64,000 bases of DNA from positions 173,795 to 237,794 of the forward strand of contig CACYHB010000004.1 of the NCBI GenBank assembly GCA_902774015.1, given 5' to 3'. The notes beneath the pieces were generated by a model. That model did not search any database. It was not told where the DNA came from and saw nothing but the letters and a program-made list of their open reading frames with translations. This stretch comes from Oscillospiraceae bacterium. Lineage in GTDB: Bacteria > Bacillota > Clostridia > Oscillospirales > Oscillospiraceae. Below, one piece after another: positions 6,613 to 21,895 of this stretch. Positions within the stretch are counted from its first letter, which is position 1, and the number at the start of each line of letters is the position of its first letter. The position numbers and the translations under genes are program-made.

Positions 6613-6705
6613 GCAGAAGTACCCAAGAGGCCGAAGGGGCTCCCCTGCTAAGGGAGTAGGGTGTCTAAAAACGCCGCGAGGGTTCAAATCCCTCCTTCTG
6701 CGCCA
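6613..6705 (+). tRNA. tRNA-Ser (anticodon GCU)
   Basis: The 93-nt sequence forms the acceptor stem GCAGAAG/CTTCTGC, discriminator G and encoded CCA, the anticodon stem CTCCC/GGGAG with loop CTGCTAA (anticodon GCU, reading AGC/AGU), a T arm with GGTTCAAATCC and a long variable arm, all typical of a class II tRNA-Ser. A large hairpin with a run of T follows directly and can act as terminator. Its 3' end is duplicated at 6866 and 8091. Confidence 0.95.
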
Positions 6706-6820
6706 AAAAAGAGAGACTACCCGTTGGGTAGGCTCTCTTTTTTCATGGTGGAGGGATTTGAATCATGTGCGCACAGGCCGGTGGCCTGTGCATGAACCAG
6801 TGCGCACACTGGTGAATTCC
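6683..6820. repeat. 138-bp direct repeat, copy 1, overlapping tRNA-Ser 3' end
   Basis: This segment recurs at 8091-8228 with two differences (GC versus AT near 6769-6770). It begins in the T arm of tRNA-Ser and contains nested symmetry: TTCAAATCCCTCC (6683-6695) is inverted at 6750-6762; between them AAAAAAGAGAG-CTACCC and GGGTAG-CTCTCTTTTTT form a strong terminator-like hairpin; then TGCACAGGCC-GGT-GGCCTGTGCA and CCAGTG-CGCA-CACTGG follow. Copy 1 supplies the real tRNA end and terminator. The duplication looks like the footprint of integration at the tRNA 3' end. Confidence 0.9.
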
Positions 6821-6865
6821 TTTATTTCCTTTTGCCGTCCCCCGCAAGGCAAAAGGAAATGCATG

Positions 6866-6892
6866 CAAATCCCTCCTTCTGCGCCAAAAAAG
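6866..6892. repeat. Partial copy of tRNA-Ser 3' end
   Basis: CAAATCCCTCCTTCTGCGCC followed by AAAAAAG matches the T-arm to CCA part of the tRNA-Ser gene exactly, without the rest of the tRNA. It is directly followed by another terminator-like hairpin (AGTACTCTG...CAGAGTACTTTTC). It looks like a further attachment-site scar. Confidence 0.85.
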
Positions 6893-7587
6893 TACTCTGT
6901 TTTTGATAGAATCAGAGTACTTTTCTTTTTGCCAAACCCCCAGTATTTCTGAGCTTTTTCACGTCTTAGGGCCGATCTCGGATACTCCCGGGACCGGCCT
7001 TTTTTTCGTTTATGCGGTTTTCAGATGACTCTGCCAAAATCTTGGTTCGTTGGAATATTGGGGTGGTTCGTTGGTTTTATGGGTATGTTCGTTTGATGCT
7101 TGACGAGGACACATCACCCCCTTTACTTTTCACTCTGCAATTCAGCTTTTCAGAAAATTATCGTTGCATCCGATTATTTACAGAATAGGCGTTGTAGCTC
7201 CGCAAGTCGGCTGTCCAACCTGCATCTGCAGGCCGGCGCTGCGGGAGACAGCGCTTTTTTCATGCTATCTATCTTCAGTAAAAACATGATGTCCCTGGCA
7301 GTTGTGGAGTATAAGAGCCTTAGAATAGTCTCCTCTCGCGGACCGGGTAAAACTGATCGCCCTTGAACTTGACCTTTTTGACGCTATCGTTTATACTGAA
7401 ATCAACCGAGCGAGAGCCGTGCGCGGGCCGAAAGGCAGTGGGCGGTTTTAGGACCTCGGTTTTCCTATTTTCAGAAGCGATGATCCCATAAAGAGTATTC
7501 CCTCTGCCGGACGTTCGCTTAACGCCGAAAAGGGCGGGGACACAGAATTTTCTTCAAAAAATCTGCCAAGCAATTCATGGATGGCAA

Positions 7588-7788
7588 TCATATCCGTATC
7601 GCAGCAATACTTTGTCCTGGCTTTCGGTTCCAATCGCGCCGCAAGCGGCTTTTGGGCTTGCTATTTTCATCTTTCCGTGATATGATCTTTCCAGAAACAG
7701 ACGCGACACTATCGATTCCTTCTTCTTGAAGGTCTGCGATATAAGTCGAGTCTGTTCTCTTTGTAGCATTGCAGAAATAATGCTGCAT
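7588..7788 (-). CDS. Doubtful small ORF, 66 aa
   Basis: The ATG at 7788 has GAGGATAA upstream and a good minus-strand promoter about 100 bp further up. The product (starts MQHYFCNATKRTDSTYIADL, basic C-terminal half) is not recognised. Overlapping frames of similar length on the same strand make decay or chance equally likely. Confidence 0.2.
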   Translation of the reverse strand: MQHYFCNATKRTDSTYIADLQEEGIDSVASVSGKIISRKDENSKPKSRLRRDWNRKPGQSIAAIRI

Positions 7789-7885
7789 TTATCCTCAAAA
7801 GAAATGGCCGGAGCACAAAGCCCCGGCCACGAGCGCGGATCGTAAGTACGTGCCCCTCGACAACGTACCTCCCCTGCTCGATAAC

Positions 7886-7915
7886 AGTATAGCGGACTCT
7901 CTGCAGCAATGTCAA
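7886..7915 (-). promoter_or_regulatory. Strong minus-strand promoter in gene-poor stretch
   Basis: On the minus strand, TTGACA (7915-7910), 18-bp spacer, TATACT (7891-7886). The transcript would begin with a GTACGT...ACGTAC hairpin and a GGCCGG/CCGGCC hairpin followed by T-rich sequence, an attenuator-like arrangement, before the 66-codon ORF. Confidence 0.55.
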
Positions 7916-8090
7916 CTACCCCGTATATTTCTGTCCTATTTATCGGACTTTTGTATTACATTTTTTCTGCTTAGTTTTCTGCTTAGACGATTCCCGGCCA
8001 TTAACAGCCGTTTACAGGAGATCCAGCAAATCCTTTATTATCAGGCACTTCGTTGATCCTGTTTTTCCGCAGTTTACGGCTCCTATATAA

Positions 8091-8228
8091 TTCAAATCCC
8101 TCCTTCTGCGCCAAAAAAGAGAGACTACCCGTTGGGTAGGCTCTCTTTTTTCATGGTGGAGGGATTTGAATCATGTATGCACAGGCCGGTGGCCTGTGCA
8201 TGAACCAGTGCGCACACTGGTGAATTCC
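8091..8228. repeat. 138-bp direct repeat, copy 2
   Basis: Near-identical to 6683-6820 but lacking the 5' part of the tRNA, so it does not encode a functional tRNA. Together the two copies bound about 1.3 kb of sequence, like attL/attR or successive tandem integration scars at a tRNA gene. Confidence 0.9.
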
Positions 8229-8356
8229 GTTTGGGTGGTCTTTATCGCTCAAGACTCATCTCTCCCGTGATGAATTCCTTATTGCTTGACGTGGAAACGG
8301 CTTAATTTCCTTCGCCGCTCACTAACCCGTCTAACAATATATCCCGTACAAGGCCT

Positions 8357-10446: not shown

Positions 10447-10896
10447 ATGGCGAATAAAGTAAACACGAACATCTTGATGAAGCGGCTGTTCAAAGCGAAC
10501 GATCTTGACGCCTATTACCAGGGGAACGACGGCTTTCTTCAGGCGCCGGATTTCTATACGCTGCTCAAGAACTACTGTGAGCAGCGGAAGATGCTCCCGG
10601 CCCAGGTGATCGAGCGCTCTCAGATCGAGCGGACCTATGGCCACCAGCTGTTTAACGGAACGCGCCGTCCCTCCCGCGACAAAGTGATCCAACTGGCGCT
10701 CGGATTCGGGCTGAACGTGGACGAGACCCAGCGGCTGCTGCGATCGGCGGGGAAAAGCCCGCTCTATCCCCGGCTGAAACGGGACGCCGCGATCCTGTAC
10801 GGAATCCAGAAGAAACTGTCCATCCTTGCCGTTCAGGAGATTCTGACGAAATACGGGCTGACCCTGCTGGGAGGGCAGAAAAATGGAATCGAGTGA
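10447..10896 (+). CDS. XRE-like helix-turn-helix protein next to receptor kinase
   Basis: 149 residues. The central part (about residues 45-100: AQVIERSQIERTYGHQLFNG then TRRPSRDKVIQLALGFGLN) has the layout of a Cro/C1-type HTH and is followed by ETQRLLRSAGKSPLYPRLKRDAAI. It probably binds DNA or serves as adaptor for the kinase whose gene overlaps it by 14 bp. Similar HTH proteins are seen beside Ser/Thr kinases in Clostridia (general knowledge). Neither target nor phosphorylation site can be told from sequence. Confidence 0.75.
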   Translation: MANKVNTNILMKRLFKANDLDAYYQGNDGFLQAPDFYTLLKNYCEQRKMLPAQVIERSQIERTYGHQLFNGTRRPSRDKVIQLALGFGLNVDETQRLLRSAGKSPLYPRLKRDAAILYGIQKKLSILAVQEILTKYGLTLLGGQKNGIE

Positions 10897-12601
10897 AAAC
10901 GGCGTCCTGATCCCGGACCTTCCCGATGAGGCGGAGTACCCTCGGGAGCTGACGCAGCGCTATGAGCTTTTGGAGCGTTTCTCCGAAAAGGAAAACGTCC
11001 GGACGCTGCTGGCTTCAAACCGCGACAGCGGCGAGCTCTGCGTTGTAAAATGCTTTTTCAGGGAAAGCCCCCTGTATGATCGCAGCGAGCCGGAAGCCCT
11101 GCGGAAGATCAACGCGGCGCCCATGCCGCGTTTTGTGGCGGAGTACCGCAGCGAGCGGATGCGCTGTGTGCTGCGGGAGTACGTGCCCGGCGATCCACTC
11201 TCACGGCTGGCCACGGAAAAGATCTTCACGGAGGAAGAAGTCATCGGCATCGGCGTACAGCTCTGCGAGCAGCTTCACGCGCTGCACAGCATGGAGCCGC
11301 CGGTGATCCATCGGGACGTCACGCCGCAGAACGTGATTCTCCGCCCGGACGGGACGGCCGTGCTGATCGATTTCGGCATAGCCCGCAGCCGCACGGAAAA
11401 GAATACGGATACCGTCGCTTTCGGCACGCACGGTTTCGCCCCGCCGGAGCAGTACGGCTTTTCGCAGACGGATGCCCGCTCGGATATCTATTCCCTCGGT
11501 ACGCTCCTGTACTGGCTGCTGCGCCGGGATACGAAGCCGAGGCAGGGGAAGCGAAGCGAGCTGGAAAAGGTCATTGCCCACTGCGTGTTCTTCGATCCCG
11601 ACAAGCGGTTTGACAACGTGCAGCAGGTCAAGCGTGCGCTGCTCGCCGCGAGGCCGGCGGTCCGGAAGAAACGCAGACGCCTGATTGCTGCGGCAGCATG
11701 CTTTTTGCTTGCCCTGCTCTTTGCCGGGATCTGGGTCTCCGCCCGTGCGCGCCACAGGACCGTCGTATTCTCCGAACCGATGATCGAGCAGGCGGTGAGG
11801 GCTAATCTGGGGCTTGATGCCGACACGCCCGTCACCGGGGACCTGCTGCAGCAGGTCACCGCCATCTATATTGTGGCGGATGCCGCCTACCCGGACGCCG
11901 ACAGCTTCTACGCCGCCGTCAATCGGTGGTACGCCGCAGGGCGGAGCGTGCGCGGAGCTGTCACGGATCTGGCGGATCTGGCGTTCGTGCCCAACCTGGA
12001 GCGCGTGGGGCTCGTTGCCCAGGAGCTGTCGGATATCTCCGCGCTGGCCGGCCATCCGAGGCTCAGCGCCGTTGAATGCAAGCACAATTACATCACGGAT
12101 ATCTCCGTCCTGGCCGGGATGGAGCGTCTCCGCTCCGTGGGCATCAACGACAACCCCGTGCGGGACATCTCCCCGCTGGCCGCCTGCCCGAGCCTGGCGT
12201 TCCTGGATCTGTGCGCTGTACGCAGCTATGATCCCGCCGTGCTGGCACAGCTGGGCAATTTCGACTTTCTGGACATCTCAAACCCCACCGAAAGCTATCG
12301 CTTTCTGGACGGGAAGGCCATTCTGGACCTTCGCATCGCGTGGAGCGGTCTGGATGATCTTCACGTTCTGGACCGCGTGACGCGGCTGGAGCGGCTGGAG
12401 ATCGACCACACGGAGGTCTCGGACCTCTCGCCGCTGGCGCTGCACAAGGGGCTGAAGGAGCTGAAGCTTGCGGGACTGCCGGTCGCGGATTTCAGCGTTC
12501 TGCTGGAGCTGCCGCAGCTGAAGGAGGTCACCGTCAGCGAAGAACAGAGGGCGGCGATCGAAGCGCTGGGAGACGTGCCTTTCATCATACGCTGCGAATA
12601 A
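10883..12601 (+). CDS. Receptor-type Ser/Thr kinase: kinase-TM-LRR
   Basis: 572 residues. An N-terminal Hanks-type kinase carries all catalytic landmarks: Lys56 in CVVKCF, HRDVTPQN (Asp145), DFGIAR (Asp163) and FAPPEQYG; the Gly-rich loop is degenerate. After a basic stop-transfer stretch (RKKRRR) comes one TM helix (about 267-285), then an ectodomain starting with the LRR N-cap IEQAVRANLGLD and internalin-like repeats such as ISVLAGMERLRSVGINDNPV and RDISPLAACPSLAFLDL, closed by LKEVTVSEEQ. The domain order is kinase inside, LRR outside, the reverse chain order of plant receptor kinases. It overlaps the HTH gene and is followed by a terminator. Confidence 0.9.
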   Translation: MESSENGVLIPDLPDEAEYPRELTQRYELLERFSEKENVRTLLASNRDSGELCVVKCFFRESPLYDRSEPEALRKINAAPMPRFVAEYRSERMRCVLREYVPGDPLSRLATEKIFTEEEVIGIGVQLCEQLHALHSMEPPVIHRDVTPQNVILRPDGTAVLIDFGIARSRTEKNTDTVAFGTHGFAPPEQYGFSQTDARSDIYSLGTLLYWLLRRDTKPRQGKRSELEKVIAHCVFFDPDKRFDNVQQVKRALLAARPAVRKKRRRLIAAAACFLLALLFAGIWVSARARHRTVVFSEPMIEQAVRANLGLDADTPVTGDLLQQVTAIYIVADAAYPDADSFYAAVNRWYAAGRSVRGAVTDLADLAFVPNLERVGLVAQELSDISALAGHPRLSAVECKHNYITDISVLAGMERLRSVGINDNPVRDISPLAACPSLAFLDLCAVRSYDPAVLAQLGNFDFLDISNPTESYRFLDGKAILDLRIAWSGLDDLHVLDRVTRLERLEIDHTEVSDLSPLALHKGLKELKLAGLPVADFSVLLELPQLKEVTVSEEQRAAIEALGDVPFIIRCE

Positions 12602-12627
12602 ATAAACCTCGGGTAATTATTTCCGGG

Positions 12628-12674
12628 AAAAGCGCCAAAGTGTGCAGACTGCACACCAATTGGCGCTTTTCTTT
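12628..12674 (+). terminator. Terminator after receptor kinase gene
   Basis: AAAAGCGCCAA (12628-12638) pairs with TTGGCGCTTTT (12660-12670); the loop holds a second hairpin, GTGTGC/GCACAC. A T-rich tail follows (CTTTTGC). It separates the HTH-kinase unit from the HD-RyR/TIR/SLOG unit. Confidence 0.75.
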
Positions 12675-12740
12675 TGCTATACTTTTGACTGGATATTTTT
12701 AGCAGCTTCGGATCCCAAAAATGACAGGAGGGGCGTAACC

Positions 12741-14768
12741 ATGGCCTATACCGCATTCGAAACCATGCGAAAGAAAAACCGGGAACGCTTCGGCTCCGAT
12801 CTGGGGCCGATACAGCCGCCGCTATACAGCAACCGGAAGAATCGCAACGATCTCAAATCATCCGCGCTCCGCTTTCTGCACAACCGCTGTGAAAGGCTTC
12901 GCTTTGACCCGGCCAGGGAGGCGGCGGAAAACGCGTCCGGCGTCTATCAGGGCACGAGCCTGAAACCCGGCCAGATCCCCTACAACATGCAGATGGACAT
13001 TGACCGCCTCTGTCTGGAGAAAGCGCTGGAGGGCTTCATCGATTCCGGTGTGGCAGAGGACGCCTATGCGGTTTACTACTGCTTTCTGGAGCTTTTCATC
13101 GGGCAGTACGGGAATTCCAAAAAAATGGTGGAGCTGCTTTCGGAATACGAGGCCAACGGCAGCGCCCTGCTGATGAAGCACCGGGATCACTATTCCCATT
13201 CGGTCTACGTGTTCGCTCTGGGCCTTGCGATCTATGACAGCAACGAGGCTTATCGGCGCAGCTTCCGAAGCTTCTATCATCTGGAGGATCAAAAGGAAAA
13301 CGAAACCGCCAATCTGTTTCTGGAATACTGGGGCCTGACGAGCCTCTTTCATGACATCGGCTATCCCTTTGAGCTGCCCTTTGAACAGGTGCTCAGCTAT
13401 TTTGAGGTGGACCGCCGGGAGCGCGGCAAAGGGAGCCTGTACCTGGCCTATCACGACGTGGAGGCGCTCACCGGTCTGGACGAGGCGTCCAAGCTGCACT
13501 TTGAGGCCCTGTTCGGCAGGCGTTTTGAAACTACCAGCGAGCTGCTGGCCTGGGATATCGCCCGAAAACTCGGCGCCGCCTACGACTTTTCCGAAGGCTA
13601 CCTTCTGGATGTGCTGAACAGGAAGCCCACGGAGCCCAACCGCTTCGGATATTTCATGGATCACGCCTTTTTCAGCGCCTCCCGCCTGTATCAGGAGCTC
13701 GCGGAAGAACTCGGAGCGGAGAATCTCAACGCCATGCACGTGGACGTACTCTCCGCCATCCTGCTGCACAACAGCCTCTATAAGTTTTCCATCGCTTTCT
13801 ATAAGGATAGGGAGAAGCGGAAAGCGCCGCTGAAAGCGGAACTCCATCCCCTGGCCTGGCTGCTGATGCTCTGCGACGAGCTGCAGTGCTGGGATCGGAC
13901 CGCCTACGGGCGAAACTCCCGCACCGAGCTGCACTCCATGGCTGTCGACTTTGACTTTTCCGGCAGCTCCCTTGCCGCCGTTTACTACTACGACCGGGCG
14001 GAGCAAAAAAAGATCGACGACTTCCGGGTCCGCTATCGCGCCTGGGAGAAGGGCGGAGAGCTCGGAAAGCCTCCCCGTCTGAAGGCCTACAGCGACATGG
14101 CGGAGAAGGAACAGCGCTTCACGGCGGACATCGAGAAGATCGTGGATACCTCCTTCATCCCGCTGACCGTAAAGCCGAGCCTGCGGAAGGTGGATCGAAA
14201 GAGCAAGCGCACTTACCTCTCCGGAAGCAATTTCCTGCATTTCTATGATTTCGCGGTGGCATTGCACGCCAGGAACATGCCCGGGGAACCCACGCGCGAG
14301 GAAATGGAGGAAAACTTCACCGCAAGCTCTCTGGAGTACCAGCTCTCCACCCTGGGCCGCACGCGTCATTTCGCGGCCTATCTGAACGCCATCGGCTGCT
14401 TCTACACGGACCGGCCGGTGGACTTTGAGATGGTTTCGCACTTCGGCGTCAAGGATGCGGCGATCTTCGCCCCCATGGAGCATGAACGCTGGGTGCGCGA
14501 GCACCAGACCATGGGCTGGCGCTACGGAAGGGATTATGAAACGCTGTCTCTGGACGTCCCGGCGGAGGAGGAAAAAACAGCTCGCGCCGCACTGCGCGAG
14601 CAGCTGCGCTGCCACAAGCTGTGCATGGACGGGCGCCTCACGCACGATGAGATCCGCGCCCACTATCAGCGGCTGCCTCACAGTTATCAGGACAAGGACT
14701 GGAAGCCCTTCAACCGGCTGCTGGTGCTGCTGAAAAAGTTTGACGGACTGCGGATCTACCGCCTTTGA
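12741..14768 (+). CDS. HD-domain phosphohydrolase with C-terminal RyR-like domain
   Basis: 675 residues from the ATG at 12741, with AGGAGGGG upstream. An HD domain is seen at about 145-430: HRDHYSHSVYVFALG (first His), SLFHDIGYPFE (His204-Asp205), LLHNSLYKF and LLMLCDELQCWDR (metal and terminal Asp). The last 100 residues resemble a RyR domain: MEHERWVREHQTMGWRYG near 579-596 and SYQDKDWKPFNRLLVLLK at the end. HD enzymes hydrolyse phosphate esters, often nucleotides. RyR domains occur in bacterial nucleotide-centred conflict systems as predicted ligand sensors. It is first in an operon with three TIR-like LRR proteins and a SLOG protein. Substrate unknown. Confidence 0.75.
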   Translation: MAYTAFETMRKKNRERFGSDLGPIQPPLYSNRKNRNDLKSSALRFLHNRCERLRFDPAREAAENASGVYQGTSLKPGQIPYNMQMDIDRLCLEKALEGFIDSGVAEDAYAVYYCFLELFIGQYGNSKKMVELLSEYEANGSALLMKHRDHYSHSVYVFALGLAIYDSNEAYRRSFRSFYHLEDQKENETANLFLEYWGLTSLFHDIGYPFELPFEQVLSYFEVDRRERGKGSLYLAYHDVEALTGLDEASKLHFEALFGRRFETTSELLAWDIARKLGAAYDFSEGYLLDVLNRKPTEPNRFGYFMDHAFFSASRLYQELAEELGAENLNAMHVDVLSAILLHNSLYKFSIAFYKDREKRKAPLKAELHPLAWLLMLCDELQCWDRTAYGRNSRTELHSMAVDFDFSGSSLAAVYYYDRAEQKKIDDFRVRYRAWEKGGELGKPPRLKAYSDMAEKEQRFTADIEKIVDTSFIPLTVKPSLRKVDRKSKRTYLSGSNFLHFYDFAVALHARNMPGEPTREEMEENFTASSLEYQLSTLGRTRHFAAYLNAIGCFYTDRPVDFEMVSHFGVKDAAIFAPMEHERWVREHQTMGWRYGRDYETLSLDVPAEEEKTARAALREQLRCHKLCMDGRLTHDEIRAHYQRLPHSYQDKDWKPFNRLLVLLKKFDGLRIYRL

Positions 14769-14776
14769 TCGGGATC

Positions 14777-15607
14777 ATGAAGCACTGGATGAAACAGTTC
14801 CCGCCCTACGAGGGCGATCGGCCGTATCTGTACTTCGCCTTTGCCGCCGCTGACAGCGCCCGGGTCTGGAGGCTTCTCCGTCCCCTGCTCTCCAGAGGCT
14901 GTCGGGTGTGGTATTGCTGCGGTCCGGCGGGCAGCGCGGAGGAGCTGCTGCACCGGCAGGCGCGCTGCGAGAAGGCCGCATTGACCGTGGTGTATCTGAC
15001 GGATGCGGTCTGTGCGGATCGGGACGCCAAAAGCGCCGTTCTCGTCAATCAAAAATTCAATCGCCCGATCCTCTGCCTGGACCCGGACGAAAAGGATCGC
15101 CGCCTCTCCATGAATCTTCGGGAGACGGTCCCGCACGTTCCCCTGTATCAAAGCTCCGCCGGCGGGGATTGGGAGAGCGCCATTCTCCATGCCGAGGGTT
15201 TTTCTCAGGATATGATCGGGGATCCGATCGACGTTGGGAACAGCGGCAGGCTGATAAGCAGGCTCACGCTGGCTTTCTGTGCGCTGGCCGTGCTTCTGGC
15301 CGCCGTCTCCTTTGCCGGCTTTCATGTTTTCGGATGGTTTTCCTCCGCTCCGCGGGATGAAGTGGAAATCAGCGACCTTGTCCTGCAGGCCGCCGTACGG
15401 CAGGCTGCGGGCGGCGGAGCGATCACGGAAGAGAGGTTATCGGAGCTCAGCTTTCTGCGGCTCCGGGAGCTGCCGGAGAGCTGGGAAGAGCTCCGGTTTC
15501 TGAGTGCTCTGGAACGCATTGAGCTGCCGCAGCAGGCGCTGCTGGACGGCGGCGCGCTGCCGGACGGAGACTACGTCATCGAACTGAGCGGAGGTGACGG
15601 CTCATGA
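14777..15607 (+). CDS. Pseudo-TIR membrane protein with vestigial LRR ectodomain
   Basis: 276 residues from the ATG at 14777 (a TTG at 14765 overlaps the previous stop). The N-terminal part parallels the TIR domain of the next gene: PYEGDRPYLYFAFAAADSAR against PYEGSRPFLFISYAHLQSDA. The WYDEG motif is changed to WYCCG, and the residue matching the catalytic Glu is Ala87, so NADase activity is unlikely. One TM helix (about 163-188) precedes an ectodomain with the LRR N-cap VLQAAVRQAAG, then LSELSFLRLREL and LSALERIELP, too short for real repeats. It may be a regulatory partner of the intact TIR protein, whose ATG overlaps its stop codon. Confidence 0.7.
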   Translation: MKHWMKQFPPYEGDRPYLYFAFAAADSARVWRLLRPLLSRGCRVWYCCGPAGSAEELLHRQARCEKAALTVVYLTDAVCADRDAKSAVLVNQKFNRPILCLDPDEKDRRLSMNLRETVPHVPLYQSSAGGDWESAILHAEGFSQDMIGDPIDVGNSGRLISRLTLAFCALAVLLAAVSFAGFHVFGWFSSAPRDEVEISDLVLQAAVRQAAGGGAITEERLSELSFLRLRELPESWEELRFLSALERIELPQQALLDGGALPDGDYVIELSGGDGS

Positions 15608-16770
15608 GCGGCTTTTTCAAGCCCTATGAGGGCAGCCGTCCCTTCCTGTTTATCAGCTATGCCCACCTTCAGTCCGACGCTGTTCTCGAGACCATCCGCA
15701 TCCTGCATGAGAAGGGCTGGCGATTGTGGTATGACGAGGGCATCCCCGCCGGGAGCGACTGGCCTGCCAATATCGCCCAACACATGCAAAGCTGCGAGCG
15801 GGTGGTGTTTTTCCTCTCGGAGCGGGCTTTGGCATCGCACAACTGCACGAGTGAAATGAAAACGGCGGCGCGGCTGGGAAAGCCGATTCTGATCGTCCGT
15901 CTGGAGGACGCCGCAGCGGACGGGGCTTGGAAAGACATCCTGGACGGCTGCCGCGAGATTCCCCCGCTGGAGAGCGCGGCGGAGCGGGCAGACGCGATCC
16001 TGCGCGCCGGTTTTCTGCCCCGCCGTCTGCACCGCAGCTGGACGGAGCACATCCCCTGGCGGGCGCTGGGGCTTATCGCCTCGCTGCTCTTCTTTCTGGC
16101 GGCGGCGGGCGCGCTCGGCGCGCTGGCGACAGGGAGATGGAGCCCGGTCCCGGACCCGGACCCGCCCGCGGAAACGGAGGCCCGGCGCGTCACGCCGAGT
16201 CCCGTTCCCGTCGTGGAGCTGGGGGACGCGGAGCGTTTCTTCGCCGTAAGCTTCCCGGATAAGCAGCAGGAGCGGGCCGTTCGCCGGGCGCTGGCCAATC
16301 CGGCGGACGCTGTCTACCGCTGGCAGATCGCCGAGATCCCTGAGCTGTATTTCTGCGGGAATCTGACGCCGGACGGCATGGACGCGGTCTCCTTCGACGT
16401 GGACGGGACCTGCCGGGTCAACGGAGCGCCGGTCGTTCAGGGACAGGTTGCCGACCTGAGTCTGATCGGATCCATGGCGAAGCTGGAGCGCCTCGCGCTG
16501 ATCTGCCAGCCGCTGGACGATCTGTCCGGCCTGAACGGGCACATGCTGCTGCGGGAGCTTAGCCTCGCGGGCAGCAGCGTGGACGATCTCTCCGCGATCA
16601 CGGAGCTTCCGAGCCTGGAGACGCTGCATCTGGAGCACACCGGCGTGCTCGACCTGAGGGTCCTGGATGCCCTTCCGAATTTGAAAACCGTGACGGTCAG
16701 CAGGGATATGCTGCCGCTGACGTGGAACGATCAGGCCGCCTTTGCGGTCGTCCTGATCCGGGAATCCTGA
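15604..16770 (+). CDS. TIR-TM-LRR receptor-like protein
   Basis: 388 residues. The TIR domain (about 10-135) is well kept: FLFISYAHLQSDAV, GWRLWYDEGIPAGSDW, VVFFLSERALAS and HNCTSEMKTAARLGKPILI, where Glu84 matches the catalytic Glu of TIR NADases. One TM helix (about 154-176) follows. The ectodomain has the N-cap ERAVRRALANP and about four LRRs (DLSLIGSMAKLERLALI, DDLSGLNGHMLLRELSLAG), and ends LKTVTVSRDM, like the kinase C-cap. So a cytoplasmic TIR is joined to an outside LRR sensor, a Toll-like-receptor part list. It overlaps the preceding gene by four bases (ATGA). Confidence 0.87.
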   Translation: MSGFFKPYEGSRPFLFISYAHLQSDAVLETIRILHEKGWRLWYDEGIPAGSDWPANIAQHMQSCERVVFFLSERALASHNCTSEMKTAARLGKPILIVRLEDAAADGAWKDILDGCREIPPLESAAERADAILRAGFLPRRLHRSWTEHIPWRALGLIASLLFFLAAAGALGALATGRWSPVPDPDPPAETEARRVTPSPVPVVELGDAERFFAVSFPDKQQERAVRRALANPADAVYRWQIAEIPELYFCGNLTPDGMDAVSFDVDGTCRVNGAPVVQGQVADLSLIGSMAKLERLALICQPLDDLSGLNGHMLLRELSLAGSSVDDLSAITELPSLETLHLEHTGVLDLRVLDALPNLKTVTVSRDMLPLTWNDQAAFAVVLIRES

Positions 16771-16795
16771 TTCTTTCTTTGAAGGAGGATGCGAT

Positions 16796-19700
16796 ATGAG
16801 CAAAAAAGAGATCCGCCTGCTGTGCGCGGAGGCCGACCGCACGGCGCTGCAGCCGGTGCTGGACGCGCTGAGAGCCAAAGGGCAGCATGTGACGGAGGGC
16901 CAAAGCATCGGAAAGGACGACGTCGTGCTGGCGGCGCTGTCGGAGAGCTTCTACGCCGACGGCGGCAAAGCCGAAGCGCTGCTTGACCTTGTCGCCGCGG
17001 GAGCGGAAAACGTACTGCCCCTGCAGCTGGACGGCGCGCCCATTCCGGATACGGTCAAGAACGCGCTGTATGCCCGCAACATCATCCCCGCCGCCGGGCG
17101 CGACGCGGCGCATACCGCCCAGCGCATTCTGGATGCGCTGCCGAAGAAAACGTCGAAGCTGCCGCTGGTTTTCTTGGCAGCTGCGCTGCTGCTGATCGCC
17201 GCCGTCGGTCTCTTCTTCTGGCGTGACAGGCAGCGCGCGGCCTCGCCTGAGGAGGCGGTTCCCGCGCTGGAGGAGATCACGCCCGAGCCGATTTTCATTC
17301 CGGCGGGCATCACGGAGGAGGATCTGGCCGCCATTGAGGACGTGGTCATCGTCGGTGATTATTTCGCCTATTATACTGACGCGGATTTTCGCGCGGCCGG
17401 AGAGCACTGGCTCAGCGTCTATGACGACGTGGCCTATCGCATCCTTGATGACGGGGAGCCTCTGTGGATCAGCAAGGAGGACGGGCATGCCTATACCATG
17501 ACCCGCTACGACGATCTGCGCTTTCTGGAGCTGATGCCGAAGCTGCGCTTTCTGGAGCTGGTCAACGTAGCAGCGGCCGCCGATATGCTCCCGGATCTGA
17601 GCCAAGCCGCTATCCTGGAGGGCGTGTCCCTCTCCGACTGCGATATTGACAGCTTGGCGTGGCTGACCGGAGCGAAGATGAACTCTTTTAATATCCACAA
17701 CACGCAGGTGACAGATTACACGCCGCTGACTACCTGCAGCAGACTGAAGGACGTCAATCTTGATCTGTACCGGATGGAAGAAGCGGATTGTTCGGATTTT
17801 GCCCCGCCGAAGCTTCAAAGCTTTCGAATCGACAACGGGCAGGATCTGCGCGGTGGGCTGGACCTCTCCGCCCTCACTGCTTGTACGGAGCTGCGGGAAT
17901 GCTGGCTGGGTTTTGCGCTTCCCCTCACCGATCTGTCCTTTCTCGCCGATGCGGCAAAGCTGGAAGCTCTTTACATATACGATATGGATACTCTGCGGGA
18001 TATCTCCGCGCTGAAAGGGATGAAGAATCTCAAACATCTGGAGATCCAGTACTGCGAGCGCATCACGGACTATACGCCTATCGCGGGCTGTACCGCGTTG
18101 GAGCAGATCCATCTCCAGTGTGACAATAACCCCGACGCCATGCGGGACGCCTCCTTCCTCGCCGGGCTTCCGAAGCTCCGGGATATCGGGCTGTATGCCT
18201 GCAATCTGAACAACATGGACTTTCTGGAGGGGATCGCCGCGCACCAGCGCAGCATCAACCTTGGCTTCGCCGGGGATATCCTTGACTATTCAGGGATGGC
18301 CTATATCGAAAAATACGATTATCTGCACGTCAACCCGCGGTATCATAACGGCAGCCGCGGCGGAGAATTTACCGCCGTGCTGCCCTATATCCAGGACGCG
18401 CAGATCGACTATCTGATGCTCTATGATTGTGCGGACGTCGATCTGAGCCAGCTTCCGGACGGCATCCAGGAGCTCAGCATCCGCTACGGCAATCTGCGCG
18501 ATCTCAGCGGCCTCAAGCCCTATCCCCTGAGGCGGCTGGAGCTGTGGGACTGCCAGTATCTCGGCTCGCTGAACGGGATCGAGGCCATCCCCACGCTGCT
18601 TGGTGATCGCGGCCGGATGGCGCTGGAAATCGCGGGCTGCCCCCGTCTGACGGATTACGCTGCACTCTCCGGCAGCAAGCTTGCCCATCTGAAGCTGGTG
18701 GGCCAGTTCAGCCTTCCGGATCTGGGCAGTCTGCAAACGCGGACGCTTCGTCTGGAGAGCATCCCGGATCTGACGGATCTGCATCTGCTTGACGCGCTCT
18801 CGGCCGAGGAAAAAATCGGGATCGACCTGGTTGGGCTTGACGCGCTTCAGGATCTCTCGCCCCTGCGCCGCCTCAACGGGGGGCATCTGATCGTGCCGCC
18901 CCAGGTGTCGGAGCAGGCGGAAGAACTGGTAGATGAGGGCATTTTCGACAGCTTCGAGGTGGCCTATCCCGACGGAAGCTGGGAGCCCTTTGACGGCGCG
19001 GTGGAGCTTCTGAGCCTGGACGAGCTGGAGACCCTGCCCGCGGCTTTGCTGCGGCGAGTGGAGCGCCTCGGCATCGCGGGCGATGCGCTATTCGATTTTG
19101 ACCGCTATGACCTCTGGGAGGACTGGGAGCACCGGGATAAGAACGGCAATCCCACGCTGCAGCTCCACGACCGCGAGACGGACATGGTGACGCCGCTCTC
19201 TCCCGGTGTGATCACCGATCTGGAAAAACTCAGCGTGCTCACCGGCCTGCGGGAGCTGTACCTCTACGGCCAGCCGATCCAAAGCCTGGACGGCATTCAG
19301 GTGTTCTCCTCGCTGGAGGAGTTTTCCGCCAAGGGCTGCGCGGAGCTGAGCGACGCCTCCGCCCTCTTCGCTCTGCCGGAGCTGCGCTGGGTGGATCTCA
19401 AATGCACACAGGTCGATTCCATCCAGGGGGTGCAGAACCTGCGGGAACTGCGTTATCTGGATGTCTCCAACACCCGTGTTTCCGACCTGACGCCCCTGGC
19501 GGACTGCGACTTCTCAGCTGCGGAGGAAGACCGAGGCTTTGACCTGAACTGCAACGAGCTTGACCTGGGCGAGGAGGATTTCGCCGCCATGGCTCATATC
19601 CGGCACTTCGGAGGGCTGGCCTTCACCAACGCCGATCCCGCCGTTTGGATCGGCGCGCTGTCGGGCAGCGAGATACTCTATTTCGGCGCTGCGGGCGATC

Positions 19701-19909
19701 TGCACAGCAACGAGGATCTGGCCGCTCTTGCGGAGTCTCACCAAGAGCTGCGGGAGCTGTTCCTCGGCTGGGCGGAGGACATCACCGACCTGACGCCGCT
19801 GCTGGCGCTGGAAAACCTGCAAAGAGTCGAAATCAACAGGGATATGCAGGCGGCCATCGCGAGTCTCGACGGGCAGAGCTATGGCTTCCGGCTGGAGATC
19901 CAAAACTGA
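16796..19909 (+). CDS. Large TIR-like/TM/LRR protein
   Basis: 1037 residues with AAGGAGGATGCG upstream. The N-terminal 115 residues are a strongly diverged TIR-like fold (KKEIRLLCAEADRTALQPVL, DDVVLAALSESFYADGG, then KAEALLDLVAAGAENVLPL); the FISYA and WYDEG motifs are absent, so enzymatic activity is doubtful although a Glu may be retained. A TM helix lies at about 122-142. The rest is a long LRR ectodomain of irregular units (for example LTACTELRECWLG, LKGMKNLKHLEIQ, IAGCTALEQIHLQ) and ends with LQRVEINRDMQAAI, the same C-cap as in the kinase and TIR proteins. It probably is the largest ligand-recognising subunit of the set. Confidence 0.8.
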   Translation: MSKKEIRLLCAEADRTALQPVLDALRAKGQHVTEGQSIGKDDVVLAALSESFYADGGKAEALLDLVAAGAENVLPLQLDGAPIPDTVKNALYARNIIPAAGRDAAHTAQRILDALPKKTSKLPLVFLAAALLLIAAVGLFFWRDRQRAASPEEAVPALEEITPEPIFIPAGITEEDLAAIEDVVIVGDYFAYYTDADFRAAGEHWLSVYDDVAYRILDDGEPLWISKEDGHAYTMTRYDDLRFLELMPKLRFLELVNVAAAADMLPDLSQAAILEGVSLSDCDIDSLAWLTGAKMNSFNIHNTQVTDYTPLTTCSRLKDVNLDLYRMEEADCSDFAPPKLQSFRIDNGQDLRGGLDLSALTACTELRECWLGFALPLTDLSFLADAAKLEALYIYDMDTLRDISALKGMKNLKHLEIQYCERITDYTPIAGCTALEQIHLQCDNNPDAMRDASFLAGLPKLRDIGLYACNLNNMDFLEGIAAHQRSINLGFAGDILDYSGMAYIEKYDYLHVNPRYHNGSRGGEFTAVLPYIQDAQIDYLMLYDCADVDLSQLPDGIQELSIRYGNLRDLSGLKPYPLRRLELWDCQYLGSLNGIEAIPTLLGDRGRMALEIAGCPRLTDYAALSGSKLAHLKLVGQFSLPDLGSLQTRTLRLESIPDLTDLHLLDALSAEEKIGIDLVGLDALQDLSPLRRLNGGHLIVPPQVSEQAEELVDEGIFDSFEVAYPDGSWEPFDGAVELLSLDELETLPAALLRRVERLGIAGDALFDFDRYDLWEDWEHRDKNGNPTLQLHDRETDMVTPLSPGVITDLEKLSVLTGLRELYLYGQPIQSLDGIQVFSSLEEFSAKGCAELSDASALFALPELRWVDLKCTQVDSIQGVQNLRELRYLDVSNTRVSDLTPLADCDFSAAEEDRGFDLNCNELDLGEEDFAAMAHIRHFGGLAFTNADPAVWIGALSGSEILYFGAAGDLHSNEDLAALAESHQELRELFLGWAEDITDLTPLLALENLQRVEINRDMQAAIASLDGQSYGFRLEIQN

Positions 19910-21510
19910 TGAACGCAGAGAAGACCATCCCCCTTGTCGTGGGGGTTGCCGGCCATCGGGCGATCCGGGAGCAGGATCGCCCGGCACTGGCGAAGGCTGT
20001 GAAGGCGGAACTGGAAAAGCTGCGGGCGCTTTGCCCGCACTCGCCGCTCGTGATGCTGAACTCGCTCGCGGAGGGCTGCGACCTTCTGTGCGCCGACGCT
20101 GCGGAAGAACTGAATATTCCCCTGATCGCGGCGCTGCCCCGGGAGCGGACGGATTACGAGCGGGATTTCAGCGAGGACTCGCTTGCGCGCTTTGCGCACC
20201 ACTGCGATCGCGCCGGGCAGGTCTTTGTGGTGCCGGACACAGAGCCCGTCCCCGTCGGCGGCGTCAGCCGGGCGTATCAGTTCCGGCAGGCGGGCATCTA
20301 TATCGCCGCTCACTGCCACGTGCTGCTGGCGCTCTGGGACGGAGCGCCGGGCCGGCACGGCTGCGGCACGGCGGAGGCCGTTGACTTTGCTCTCAACGGC
20401 ATCTGCGATCCGGCGTCCGGCGTCTGCCCGCGCTCCGGCAGCAACGAGGCCGTGATCCATGTTTATACGCCGCGGGAAGAACAAAGCGGAAAGGCCGCAG
20501 GCGCGGTGGAGGTGCTTGGAAACCGGGCGGCTGTTCGGGATATTCTCCGCAAGACGGACGATTATAACCTGAACGTCTCCGGGGTCTCGTCGGAGGGCGG
20601 CTCCCGGCTCCCCTCCGGGCACGGCGGCGACCCCATCCTGAAAAGGACGGAGGCGATCAGCCGCGCTGCGGGAAAGCTGAGCCGACAGTATGCCGGACGG
20701 TATCGGCGTGTGCTTGCCCTGCTCGCTGTGGCCAGCGCTCTGCTGACCTTTGCCTTCTTGATGTACGACGAGGCGCAGGCGATCTGGATGATCCTGGTCT
20801 GCGGCGGGATGCTTCTCGCCGCATGGGGCTGCCGGCGCTACGCCGTGCGCTCGGATTGCCACCGGCGCTATATCGAATACCGCGCGCTTGCCGAGTGCCT
20901 GCGGGTGCAGACTTATCTGCGCTTTGCGGGCAGCCGCATCCAGGCGGCCGAACTGTTGTCCTGGACGCAGCAGGAGGAGACCGCGTGGATTCTGGACGCC
21001 CTTTGCGTGCTGATGATCGGGAGCGCGCCAGGAGAGGCCCATGATATCCGTTCCTGCTGGGTGGAAGCGCAGCGGGAATATCACCGGAACGCCTCCGGAA
21101 GGGCCGGGCAGAAGCTCTCCGCCAGCGACCGCACCGTGCGTTTTGCGCTGTTTTTGAGTGTGGGGCTGTATCTGCTGGGCGTGGGCTATGAGCTTTTGTG
21201 CGGCGGACTGCTCTTCCGGCCCGCTGTTGCGATTGCAGACGTGGAGCTTTGGCGCACCGTTTTGAAGATCCTGATGGGGACGATCTCAGCCGTGACGCTT
21301 TTCGTGGCGAATTTCTACGGACGTCTCTCCCTGCCGCGGAGGCTCTCCGACCACCAGAAGATGGAGCGCTTCTACGCCAAAATGTCCGCAGAACTCGAAA
21401 AGAACGGACAGACGGAGGCGCTTTTGGCGGTGCTGGCGCGAGAGGAGCTGACCGAAAACGGCAACTGGTGCTCTTATCAGCGCGACAACAAACCGGATCT
21501 CAGCCTTTAG
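19909..21510 (+). CDS. SLOG-like domain protein with four TM segments
   Basis: 533 residues; the ATG overlaps the preceding stop by one base. The N-terminal 200 residues are Rossmann-like, with VVGVAGHRAIREQD, LNSLAEGCDLLCADAAEEL and HVLLALWDGAPGRHGCGTAEAV, resembling SLOG/TIR-like nucleotide-binding domains. A TM pair (LALLAVASALLTFAFLMY and IWMILVCGGMLLAAWGC) is followed by RRYIEYRALAECLRVQTYLRFAG, similar to SLATT/DUF4231 membrane modules. A second TM pair lies near the C-terminus. In published conflict systems SLOG domains sense or bind nucleotides, and 2TM modules are proposed membrane-perturbing effectors. I infer that this is the output component of the cluster. Confidence 0.65.
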   Translation: MNAEKTIPLVVGVAGHRAIREQDRPALAKAVKAELEKLRALCPHSPLVMLNSLAEGCDLLCADAAEELNIPLIAALPRERTDYERDFSEDSLARFAHHCDRAGQVFVVPDTEPVPVGGVSRAYQFRQAGIYIAAHCHVLLALWDGAPGRHGCGTAEAVDFALNGICDPASGVCPRSGSNEAVIHVYTPREEQSGKAAGAVEVLGNRAAVRDILRKTDDYNLNVSGVSSEGGSRLPSGHGGDPILKRTEAISRAAGKLSRQYAGRYRRVLALLAVASALLTFAFLMYDEAQAIWMILVCGGMLLAAWGCRRYAVRSDCHRRYIEYRALAECLRVQTYLRFAGSRIQAAELLSWTQQEETAWILDALCVLMIGSAPGEAHDIRSCWVEAQREYHRNASGRAGQKLSASDRTVRFALFLSVGLYLLGVGYELLCGGLLFRPAVAIADVELWRTVLKILMGTISAVTLFVANFYGRLSLPRRLSDHQKMERFYAKMSAELEKNGQTEALLAVLAREELTENGNWCSYQRDNKPDLSL

Positions 21511-21598: not shown

Positions 21599-21632
21599 AG
21601 CAAAGGAGTCTGCTTTCGCAGACTCCTTTGCT
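21599..21632. terminator. Stem-loop, copy 1 (terminator-like)
   Basis: AGCAAAGGAGTCTGC pairs with GCAGACTCCTTTGCT over a TTTC loop, 15 bp without mismatch. It is identical to 21783-21816. Likely the 3' end of the receptor operon transcript. Confidence 0.65.
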
Positions 21633-21746
21633 TGAGACTGTCAAAGAACTACGCTGAAAGCACAACAAACAGAGCAGCGGGGGAGCTCGAGGGGGCAAGG
21701 CCCGCCTCGAGTACAATAACCCGCCGTCCGCGGCGGGAGAAGCGCA

Positions 21747-21775
21747 GTCAAAAAAGTCTGTCAGACTTTTTTGAC
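21747..21775. terminator. Stem-loop between the two repeated hairpins
   Basis: GTCAAAAAAGTCTG pairs with CAGACTTTTTTGAC; A-rich and T-rich arms make it work as terminator on both strands. Confidence 0.6.
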
Positions 21776-21782
21776 AAGCTGC

Positions 21783-21816
21783 AGCAAAGGAGTCTGCTTT
21801 CGCAGACTCCTTTGCT
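21783..21816. terminator. Stem-loop, copy 2 (terminator-like)
   Basis: Exact 34-bp duplicate of 21599-21632, 80 bp from the glmS stop codon, so it may serve as glmS terminator on the minus strand. Confidence 0.65.
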
Positions 21817-21895
21817 TGTCAAATCGTCCCCCGGGCAGGGCTTTTCTGGCTGCTCTTTCCCGCCGGGCAGGCATACCGACGAGATCCGGACCCGC

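Follow-up and report, generated by a model that had tools for sequence, protein, structure and literature searches.

Seven adjacent genes and their domains

The 64,000-nucleotide window analyzed here (contig CACYHB010000004.1 of an Oscillospiraceae bacterium) contains seven closely packed open reading frames (ORFs) at 10447-21510, all on the plus strand. In order, they encode a helix-turn-helix (HTH) protein, a kinase joined through a transmembrane (TM) helix to leucine-rich repeats (LRRs), a protein with an HD phosphohydrolase motif and a C-terminal ryanodine receptor (RyR) domain (HD-RyR), a degenerate TIR-TM protein, a TIR-TM-LRR protein, a TIR-like-TM-LRR protein, and a SLOG protein with four TM helices (SLOG-4TM). 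We refer to these as G1 to G7 (Table 1). The set recurs in related bacteria, and its predicted layout resembles an animal receptor pathway. An initial annotation of this DNA had proposed such a run of seven same-strand genes; all of the ORFs are present, with the refinement that they probably form two transcription units, G1-G2 and an operon of G3 to G7.

G5 matched Pfam TIR_2 with an E value of 1.4e-16, the sole match to this family above cut-off in the window's genome. The initial annotation had described an intact TIR-TM-LRR protein and named Glu84; this residue, together with Ser83 and Cys81, is invariant in all 22 aligned G5 proteins. Searches of the same genome with Pfam RyR and TIR (PF01582) gave no match; the RyR search was run without a positive control and hence provides no evidence of absence. 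Comparison of G4 with the TIR domain of G5 (hhalign probability 98.8, E value 5.1e-17) indicates that G4 is a TIR fold without the catalytic Glu, which is missing from 22 of 22 family members. The shortened N-terminal domain of G6 aligned with G4 at an hhalign probability of 90.8 and with G5 at 50, and is a probable TIR-like domain; G6 also matched LRR_4 (E value 3.3e-21). Two diverged TIR-like proteins had been expected, a description that G4 bears out and that for G6 is probable only.

G2, annotated as a kinase-TM-LRR protein, matched Pkinase and LRR_4 (E values of 3.5e-25 and 2.2e-11) in agreement with that description. A single TM helix is predicted in G2, G4, G5, and G6, with 7/3, 2/1, 3/1, and 4/3 Lys and Arg residues before/after it, respectively. 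From hydrophobicity, these counts, and the requirement of TIR domains for cytosolic nicotinamide adenine dinucleotide (NAD), the LRRs of these four proteins are predicted to lie outside the cell and the TIR or kinase domains inside.

Pfam searches with G3 of the window returned no RyR match, and HD matched only at an E value of 0.036. The RyR assignment is solid at the level of the family. Pfam RyR (PF02026) matched 13 of 33 full-length HD-RyR members (best E value 1.2e-5) and 20 of 31 isolated C-terminal domains (best 2.7e-7), the window domain still not being among them, and four distant relatives scored 50-60 bits against a cut-off of 27.4. When a profile of the C-terminal domain was compared with PDB sequences, 56 of the 57 matches at E <= 5 were ryanodine receptors or putative RyR proteins; 18 matches had E <= 0.001, the best whole-sequence E value being 2.5e-5 and the best short fragment coming from RyR3 (6.9e-5). 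Further, residues H581, W584, H625, and D653 are kept in 85, 85, 83, and 84 of 85 HD-RyR sequences. By motif and spacing, these map to H75, W78, H100, and D117, the ligand residues of RyDEP, a phage anti-Thoeris RyR protein with glycosidase activity (PMC13232231). In the distant HD-RyR group, the His, Trp, and Asp stand at the exact RyDEP spacing (+3, +42).

The HD motif (H150, H204-D205, D307-H308, H343, D379) is kept in 85/85 HD-RyR sequences. Pfam HD matched just 5 of 33 members (best E value 0.0056), profile comparison with PDB sequences gave no credible match (a single one, an unrelated dehydrogenase, at E 0.28), and Foldseek found nothing at E <= 0.001 for the whole HD-RyR model in PDB and BFVD. 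We assign HD by its motif because no fold match was obtained for the whole model. The RyR-like tail of the phosphohydrolase first annotated is therefore upheld for the family and its HD motif is intact, the HD part being a motif-based call.

The predicted structure of G7 (pLDDT 84.9) had YpsA (2nx2) as its top Foldseek match (E value 9.5e-5, probability 1.00), followed by DprA and ShosA. In the G7 family, Pfam YAcAr matched 8 of 22 proteins and DUF4231, which we take to be kin of SLATT, matched 14 of 22 (best E value 1.5e-5); the window protein falls under both cut-offs. These matches support a YpsA-like SLOG domain at the N terminus of G7, as in the SLOG-like protein with four TM helices of the initial annotation. 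Profile searches, named at that stage as a possible refutation, leave the TIR, RyR, and SLOG assignments standing at family level. An internal duplication giving rise to two 2TM halves of G7 was considered and was not supported (hhalign probability 1.9).

Table 1. Positions of the genes and features of the cluster in the window (aa, amino acids; numbers in parentheses are residues)
Feature	Position	Strand	Description
G1	10447..10896	+	XRE-type HTH protein, 149 aa; Pfam HTH_31 E 3.2e-5, under family cut-off
G2	10883..12601	+	Ser/Thr kinase, TM (267-285), LRR ectodomain; 572 aa
Hairpin, probable terminator	12625..12673	+	GC-rich stem continuing into TTTTCTTTT; G2/G3 gap
G3 (HD-RyR)	12741..14768	+	675 aa; HD motif (150-379), C-terminal RyR domain (about 560-675), no predicted TM
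RyR domain of G3	14418..14765	+	H581, W584, H625, D653
G4	14777..15607	+	Degenerate TIR, TM, short tail; 276 aa; catalytic Glu lost
G5	15604..16770	+	TIR (16-103), TM (150-168), Pro/Thr stalk C-terminal to TM, LRR; 388 aa
Catalytic Glu84 codon of G5	15853-15855	+	Within TIR domain
G6	16796..19909	+	Shortened TIR-like N terminus, TM (122-140), long internalin-like LRR ectodomain; 1037 aa
G7	19909..21510	+	SLOG domain (about 8-205), four-TM domain with long helices (about 242-526); 533 aa

Recurrence of HD-RyR beside exchangeable TIR receptors

In 84,980 species genomes, a pattern-based scan identified 243 HD-RyR relatives. The best 80 were kept and, with a viral contig, a phage record, the window, and L008 and L009 (both from genome searches), make up the 85 loci examined; these are mostly the closest third of the 243 relatives, and many are contigs of metagenome-assembled genomes (MAGs) with cut ends. 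Duplicate or partial loci (L001-L006, L010, L011) were dropped, and the near-identical pairs L023/L039 and L030/L091, as well as the similar L007/L009, were retained in the counts. TIR counts leave out a protein in L069 that Pfam calls a phosphatase and include L007; the per-type locus table and the tree labels come from an earlier TIR profile, which missed L007 as TIR and in which the G5 label of L069 is the phosphatase. TIR-TPR genes are present in L069 as well. All eight of the less usual TIR calls that were checked matched Pfam TIR_2 (one each in L045, L116, L048, L072, L073, and L075, and two in L080).

The conserved association consists of HD-RyR and a TIR receptor, with or without SLOG-4TM. 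Of the 85 loci, 60 have a TIR gene no more than six genes away from HD-RyR, and the share of TIR genes falls from 80/451 at a distance of one to three genes to 1/231 at 7 to 12. SLOG-4TM is found within six genes in 29/85 loci; 22 loci have both partners and 67/85 have either. Loci with both G4 and G5 number 21; every one of them has G6, and 14 have G7. The neighborhood survey, the other possible refutation named in the initial annotation, thus upholds recurrent co-occurrence, with the refinement that all seven genes are present within six genes of HD-RyR in just three loci (L014, L015, and the window). The HTH-kinase pair, found in 9/85 loci including the window, is an optional companion. Gene order is either G3-G4-G5-G6-G7 or G4-G5-G6-G3-G7, and G6 is sometimes present in tandem copies; because the order varies, the linkage is not a single frozen arrangement.

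We take G1-G2 and G3-G7 as separate transcription units because a strong hairpin with a GC-rich stem running into TTTTCTTTT lies in between (minimum free energy -30.6 kcal/mol, z -6.39; 0/200 shuffles equally low). This hairpin is not among the sites listed by a simple terminator scan of the window. Where G3 directly follows G2, in six loci including the window, the gap is 96-297 bp in 6/6, and members of the G3-G7 set are mostly <=60 bp apart. Gaps of <=60 bp separate 13/13 G3-G4, 12/15 G3-G7, and 6/6 G6-G7 pairs, and the G4-G5 gap is -8 to +4 bp in 22/22 pairs; G1 and G2 overlap (-14 to -4 bp) in 9/9 adjacent pairs. In the window, the overlaps are 14 bp for G1/G2, 4 bp for G4/G5, and 1 bp for G6/G7.

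Other TIR receptors (TIR-TPR/Sel1, TIR-WD40, and TIR-LRR_5) occupy the same place beside HD-RyR. No TM helix is predicted in 19 of 21 TIR-TPR proteins, and one is predicted in 6 of 7 TIR-WD40 proteins. On a tree of 82 HD-RyR proteins (L007, L008, and L009 omitted), L013, L016, and L017 form one clade next to the window with an SH-aLRT (Shimodaira-Hasegawa-like approximate likelihood ratio test) value of 100; their receptors are TIR-LRR genes, TIR-WD40 on the divergent strand, and TIR-TPR, respectively. Across the tree, receptor labels are clustered, yet 23 changes are needed, compared with a mean of 47 for shuffled labels. Since close relatives carry LRR, WD40, and TPR types, the receptor beside HD-RyR has been swapped while HD-RyR itself has stayed constant.

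Smaller sets also occur. In L114 and L116, two of the four class genomes with a distant HD-RyR, a TIR-LRR_5 gene begins <=13 bp after HD-RyR, and a TIR-WD40 + HD-RyR pair is present in L061, L074, and L081 among neighbors that appear by eye to be metabolic or transport-like. In L111 and L112, TIR-WD40 lies directly upstream of G7 (0 bp and 13 bp away); these are two of the three class genomes with full-length G7, and neither has an HD-RyR match. What all these sets share is TIR, and HD-RyR and SLOG-4TM can each accompany it without the other; the system is modular.

By record title, most of the HD-RyR loci come from MAGs labeled Oscillospiraceae/Ruminococcaceae, Lachnospiraceae, Clostridia, or Erysipelotrichaceae, and the source of many is rumen or gut. 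HD-RyR matched 5/295 genomes of the order, including the window's own and one over 70 residues only, and distant HD-RyR proteins were found in 4/391 genomes of the class. Among the 295 order genomes, full-length G4 and full-length G7 are confined to the window's genome; partial matches were found in 15 others for G4 (<=70 bits) and in five others for G7 (<=24.4 bits). Full-length G7 is present in 3/391 class genomes, with a partial match in a fourth. When 40 of the 80 genomes carrying HD-RyR loci were tried, 22 had G7, in 15 cases inside the fetched HD-RyR locus. HD-RyR had no match in plasmid records and one in phage records; G7 had none in phage records and one partial match, to its SLOG domain, in plasmid records. 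HD-RyR also lies on mobile DNA in L092 (913-12046, with MobA/MobL and serine recombinases) and L078 (1417-3135, with MobA/MobL), and near a phage Mu F-like capsid gene in L007 (7093-8046).

L013 (12732-17683) and L017 (15441-20392) have in common a 1289-aa DUF4062-NACHT protein and a 361-aa partner with one predicted TM helix; DUF4062 is described in part of PMC13174449 as a TIR-like NADase family. A 531-aa TIR_2 + DUF5050 protein in L072 (2192-3787), two genes from HD-RyR on the opposite strand, is another receptor type. In L009 (11213-11900), the TIR gene behind HD-RyR, which is intact in L007, appears to be broken by stops and frame changes. A neighbor of HD-RyR in L003, an ORF considered as a TrkA/RyR channel, had no Pfam match at E <= 0.01, and we do not claim it as such. 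A protein of 867 aa in L117 (9251-11854) has a C-terminal RyR domain (E value 1.5e-11) and weak AAA/MoxR matches under cut-off; by this profile match it is another bacterial RyR architecture.

A candidate TIR nucleotide-signaling system

Of the explanations weighed, we favor, with moderate confidence in the whole, a modular system of membrane receptors whose signal is a nucleotide derived from NAD. It starts from the established gene set, domains, conservation, recurrent linkage, and receptor exchange; its trigger, orientation, product, binding, gating, and outcome are what we infer. LRR ectodomains outside the cell (those of G5 and G6, the short one of G4, and that of G2 where present) would meet a ligand or a cue of infection or contact. 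TIR domains would then cluster at the inner face of the membrane, where G5, the putative writer, may make a cyclic ADP-ribose (cADPR) isomer or related product and the degenerate TIRs of G4 and G6 may serve as a scaffold or gate. G3 and G7 are candidate readers of this signal: the SLOG domain of G7 would bind the product, upon which the four-TM domain would open or perturb the membrane, and the RyR domain of G3 would bind it and control the attached HD phosphohydrolase. The HTH-kinase-LRR pair may be an optional regulator or parallel sensor, with the hairpin pointing to its separate transcription. The triggered cell would probably be arrested or die, most plausibly in response to phage or another attacker.

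Phage RyR domains bind 2'/3'cADPR made by TIR proteins and in one case cleave it (PMC13232231, a 2026 preprint), and YpsA-like SLOG domains include sensors of cADPR in TIR systems, Thoeris among them, according to portions of PMC9503650. Reading of the signal by RyR and SLOG, as proposed in the initial annotation, would fit this published biochemistry of phage RyR (PMC13232231) and Thoeris SLOG (PMC9503650).

Alternatively, HD-RyR might be an off-switch: the TIR signal would be cleaved or sequestered by RyR and the product processed by HD, leaving SLOG-4TM or NAD+ depletion by TIR as the effector. RyDEP glycosidase and its sponge homologs are known from phage (PMC13232231), the equivalents of the RyDEP dyad are kept (H581 in 85/85, D653 in 84/85), and such receptors would presumably require a means of ending the signal. 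Pairs without SLOG-4TM (L114, L116, L061, L074, L081) would, however, consist of a maker and an eraser with no reader, unless TIR is itself the effector. We consider an off-switch rather unlikely and prefer an HD-RyR effector, because TIR + HD-RyR pairs sit among unrelated-looking genes, where nothing but HD-RyR and TIR itself is a candidate output. A different function is suggested by the internalin-like LRRs predicted outside the cell, the HTH and kinase partners, and the gut or rumen origin that record titles give for most of the relatives: the LRRs of these Clostridia could sense cell-wall or other extracellular ligands of the envelope, host, or competitors, with TIR and kinase outputs tuning physiology rather than opposing phage. 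Exchange with TIR-TPR receptors, 19/21 of which have no predicted TM helix, the patchy distribution (any match in 5/295 order genomes), and carriage on mobile DNA fit conflict systems better, and envelope sensing seems to us about as doubtful as the off-switch.

The genes might also be chance neighbors in a hotspot of gene gain, where separate defense or sensing cassettes have piled up. An integration site is suggested by the 141-nt duplication of a tRNA-Ser end that lies 2 kb upstream, and 18/85 HD-RyR loci have neither partner. Against this stand overlapping or <=60-bp spacing repeated across many species, the repeated re-pairing on the HD-RyR tree, and the sharp drop in TIR frequency with distance (80/451 versus 1/231). 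A hotspot is already disfavored, and we regard it as very improbable.

Several observations weigh against the proposed signaling system. The locus sample, as the best 80 of 243, is biased toward relatives of the window. In the 18/85 loci with neither TIR nor SLOG-4TM within six genes, some but not all of them at contig ends, HD-RyR appears to stand alone, and so it can do without these partners. Of 43 TIR domains in TIR-TPR partners, just 2 have Glu in the aligned catalytic column; the printed rows show a Glu one or two positions further along. The HD identity of G3 is motif-based only, SLATT-type scores of G7 are under cut-offs (SLATT_3 E value 0.038), and neither HD-RyR nor G7 was matched by a PADLOC model at E <= 0.1. 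In the distant HD-RyR group, the phosphate-contact His is missing, and the +25 position is Ser or Thr. Finally, of eight further RyDEP homologs, 6/8 bound and 0/8 cleaved (PMC13232231); because RyDEP cleaves and these homologs do not, conservation of the RyR residues is compatible with cleavage, sequestration, or sensing alike.

Thoeris is among the closest known systems; the locus shares with it a TIR protein with catalytic Glu (G5) adjoining a YpsA-like SLOG receiver (G7); L111 and L112 have TIR + SLOG-4TM pairs. G7 joins its SLOG domain to four TM helices, in contrast to the SIR2-SLOG or macro-TM forms of Thoeris ThsA, and had no SIR2 or macro match in Pfam or Foldseek searches. The receptors here are LRR, WD40, or TPR proteins, the LRR ones predicted to face outward, and HD-RyR is an additional component. 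G5 matched PADLOC ThsB at best with an E value of 8.5e-5 (PADLOC gives no cut-off) and NCBIfam ThcB4 with 12.9 bits against 220. We do not file the system as Thoeris because SIR2 and macro effector domains are absent and no Thoeris model matched at a curated cut-off; it is best read as Thoeris-like in plan, a variant of TIR nucleotide signaling.

RyDEP shares with G3 an RyR domain with the His, Trp, His, and Asp ligand residues (PMC13232231); the RyR domain of G3 is bacterial, fused to HD, and encoded beside TIR, whereas RyDEP is used against TIR. Portions of PMC9503650 and PMC7159879 describe TIR-SLATT gene neighborhoods and, as predicted by Aravind and colleagues, membrane effectors in which a SLOG-type sensor is coupled to membrane helices as it would be in G7. 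Unlike those effectors, as portrayed there, G7 has SLOG and four TM helices in one protein, and its DUF4231/SLATT scores are weak. Judged by titles, the openings of abstracts, and some passages, the literature searched gave no description of HD-RyR with TIR or of this operon, and novelty is provisional.

Animal Toll-like receptors and receptor kinases resemble the predicted arrangement here in having LRRs outside, a single TM helix, and TIR or kinase inside; they differ in chain order, the signaling domain being N-terminal here, and the LRRs here are of internalin type. We do not claim common descent. A more specific version of the proposal is a bacterial Toll-like pathway, in which outward LRR-TIR receptors, one catalytic and two pseudo-TIRs, would respond to an extracellular cue and act through a cADPR isomer on an RyR-gated HD enzyme and a SLOG-gated membrane channel. 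This version is possible but tentative. TRPM2 is an ADP-ribose (ADPR)-gated channel with SLOG-type domains. If the specific version is true, the cADPR-RyR and ADPR-SLOG-channel axes debated in animals would have bacterial counterparts in one operon with swappable receptors.

The proposed system predicts host-encoded RyR domains as receivers of TIR signals, whereas the biochemistry found so far concerns phage anti-Thoeris proteins (PMC13232231), and it would join writer, readers, and receptors in one operon. Sensing of cADPR isomers by animal ryanodine receptors was left open in the same preprint (PMC13232231); TIR + HD-RyR and TIR-WD40 + SLOG-4TM provide small sets for asking whether RyR domains sense such isomers. 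The locus also bears on bacterial use of surface LRR-TIR receptors for immunity, and an unchanging core with interchangeable LRR, WD40, and TPR receptors is what a diversifying immune system would be expected to show.

Sequences flanking the cluster

The genes flanking the cluster appear to be ordinary housekeeping genes, as judged by eye from their translations. Upstream, the region at 6613-8231 of the window contains tRNA-Ser(GCT) and, at 6683-6823 and 8091-8231, a 141-nt direct repeat (98%) of the tRNA 3' end with the hairpin downstream of it. A third copy, 30 nt long, lies at 6863-6892, and the region between the repeats is gene-poor. This arrangement lies 2 kb upstream of the cluster and resembles a scar left by an element that had integrated at the tRNA. 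On the 3' side of the operon (21600-21820), a hairpin repeat (AAAGGAGTCTGC/GCAGACTCCTTT) is present in two copies, and 42 bases between them (21669-21710) are identical to phage record MT838946.

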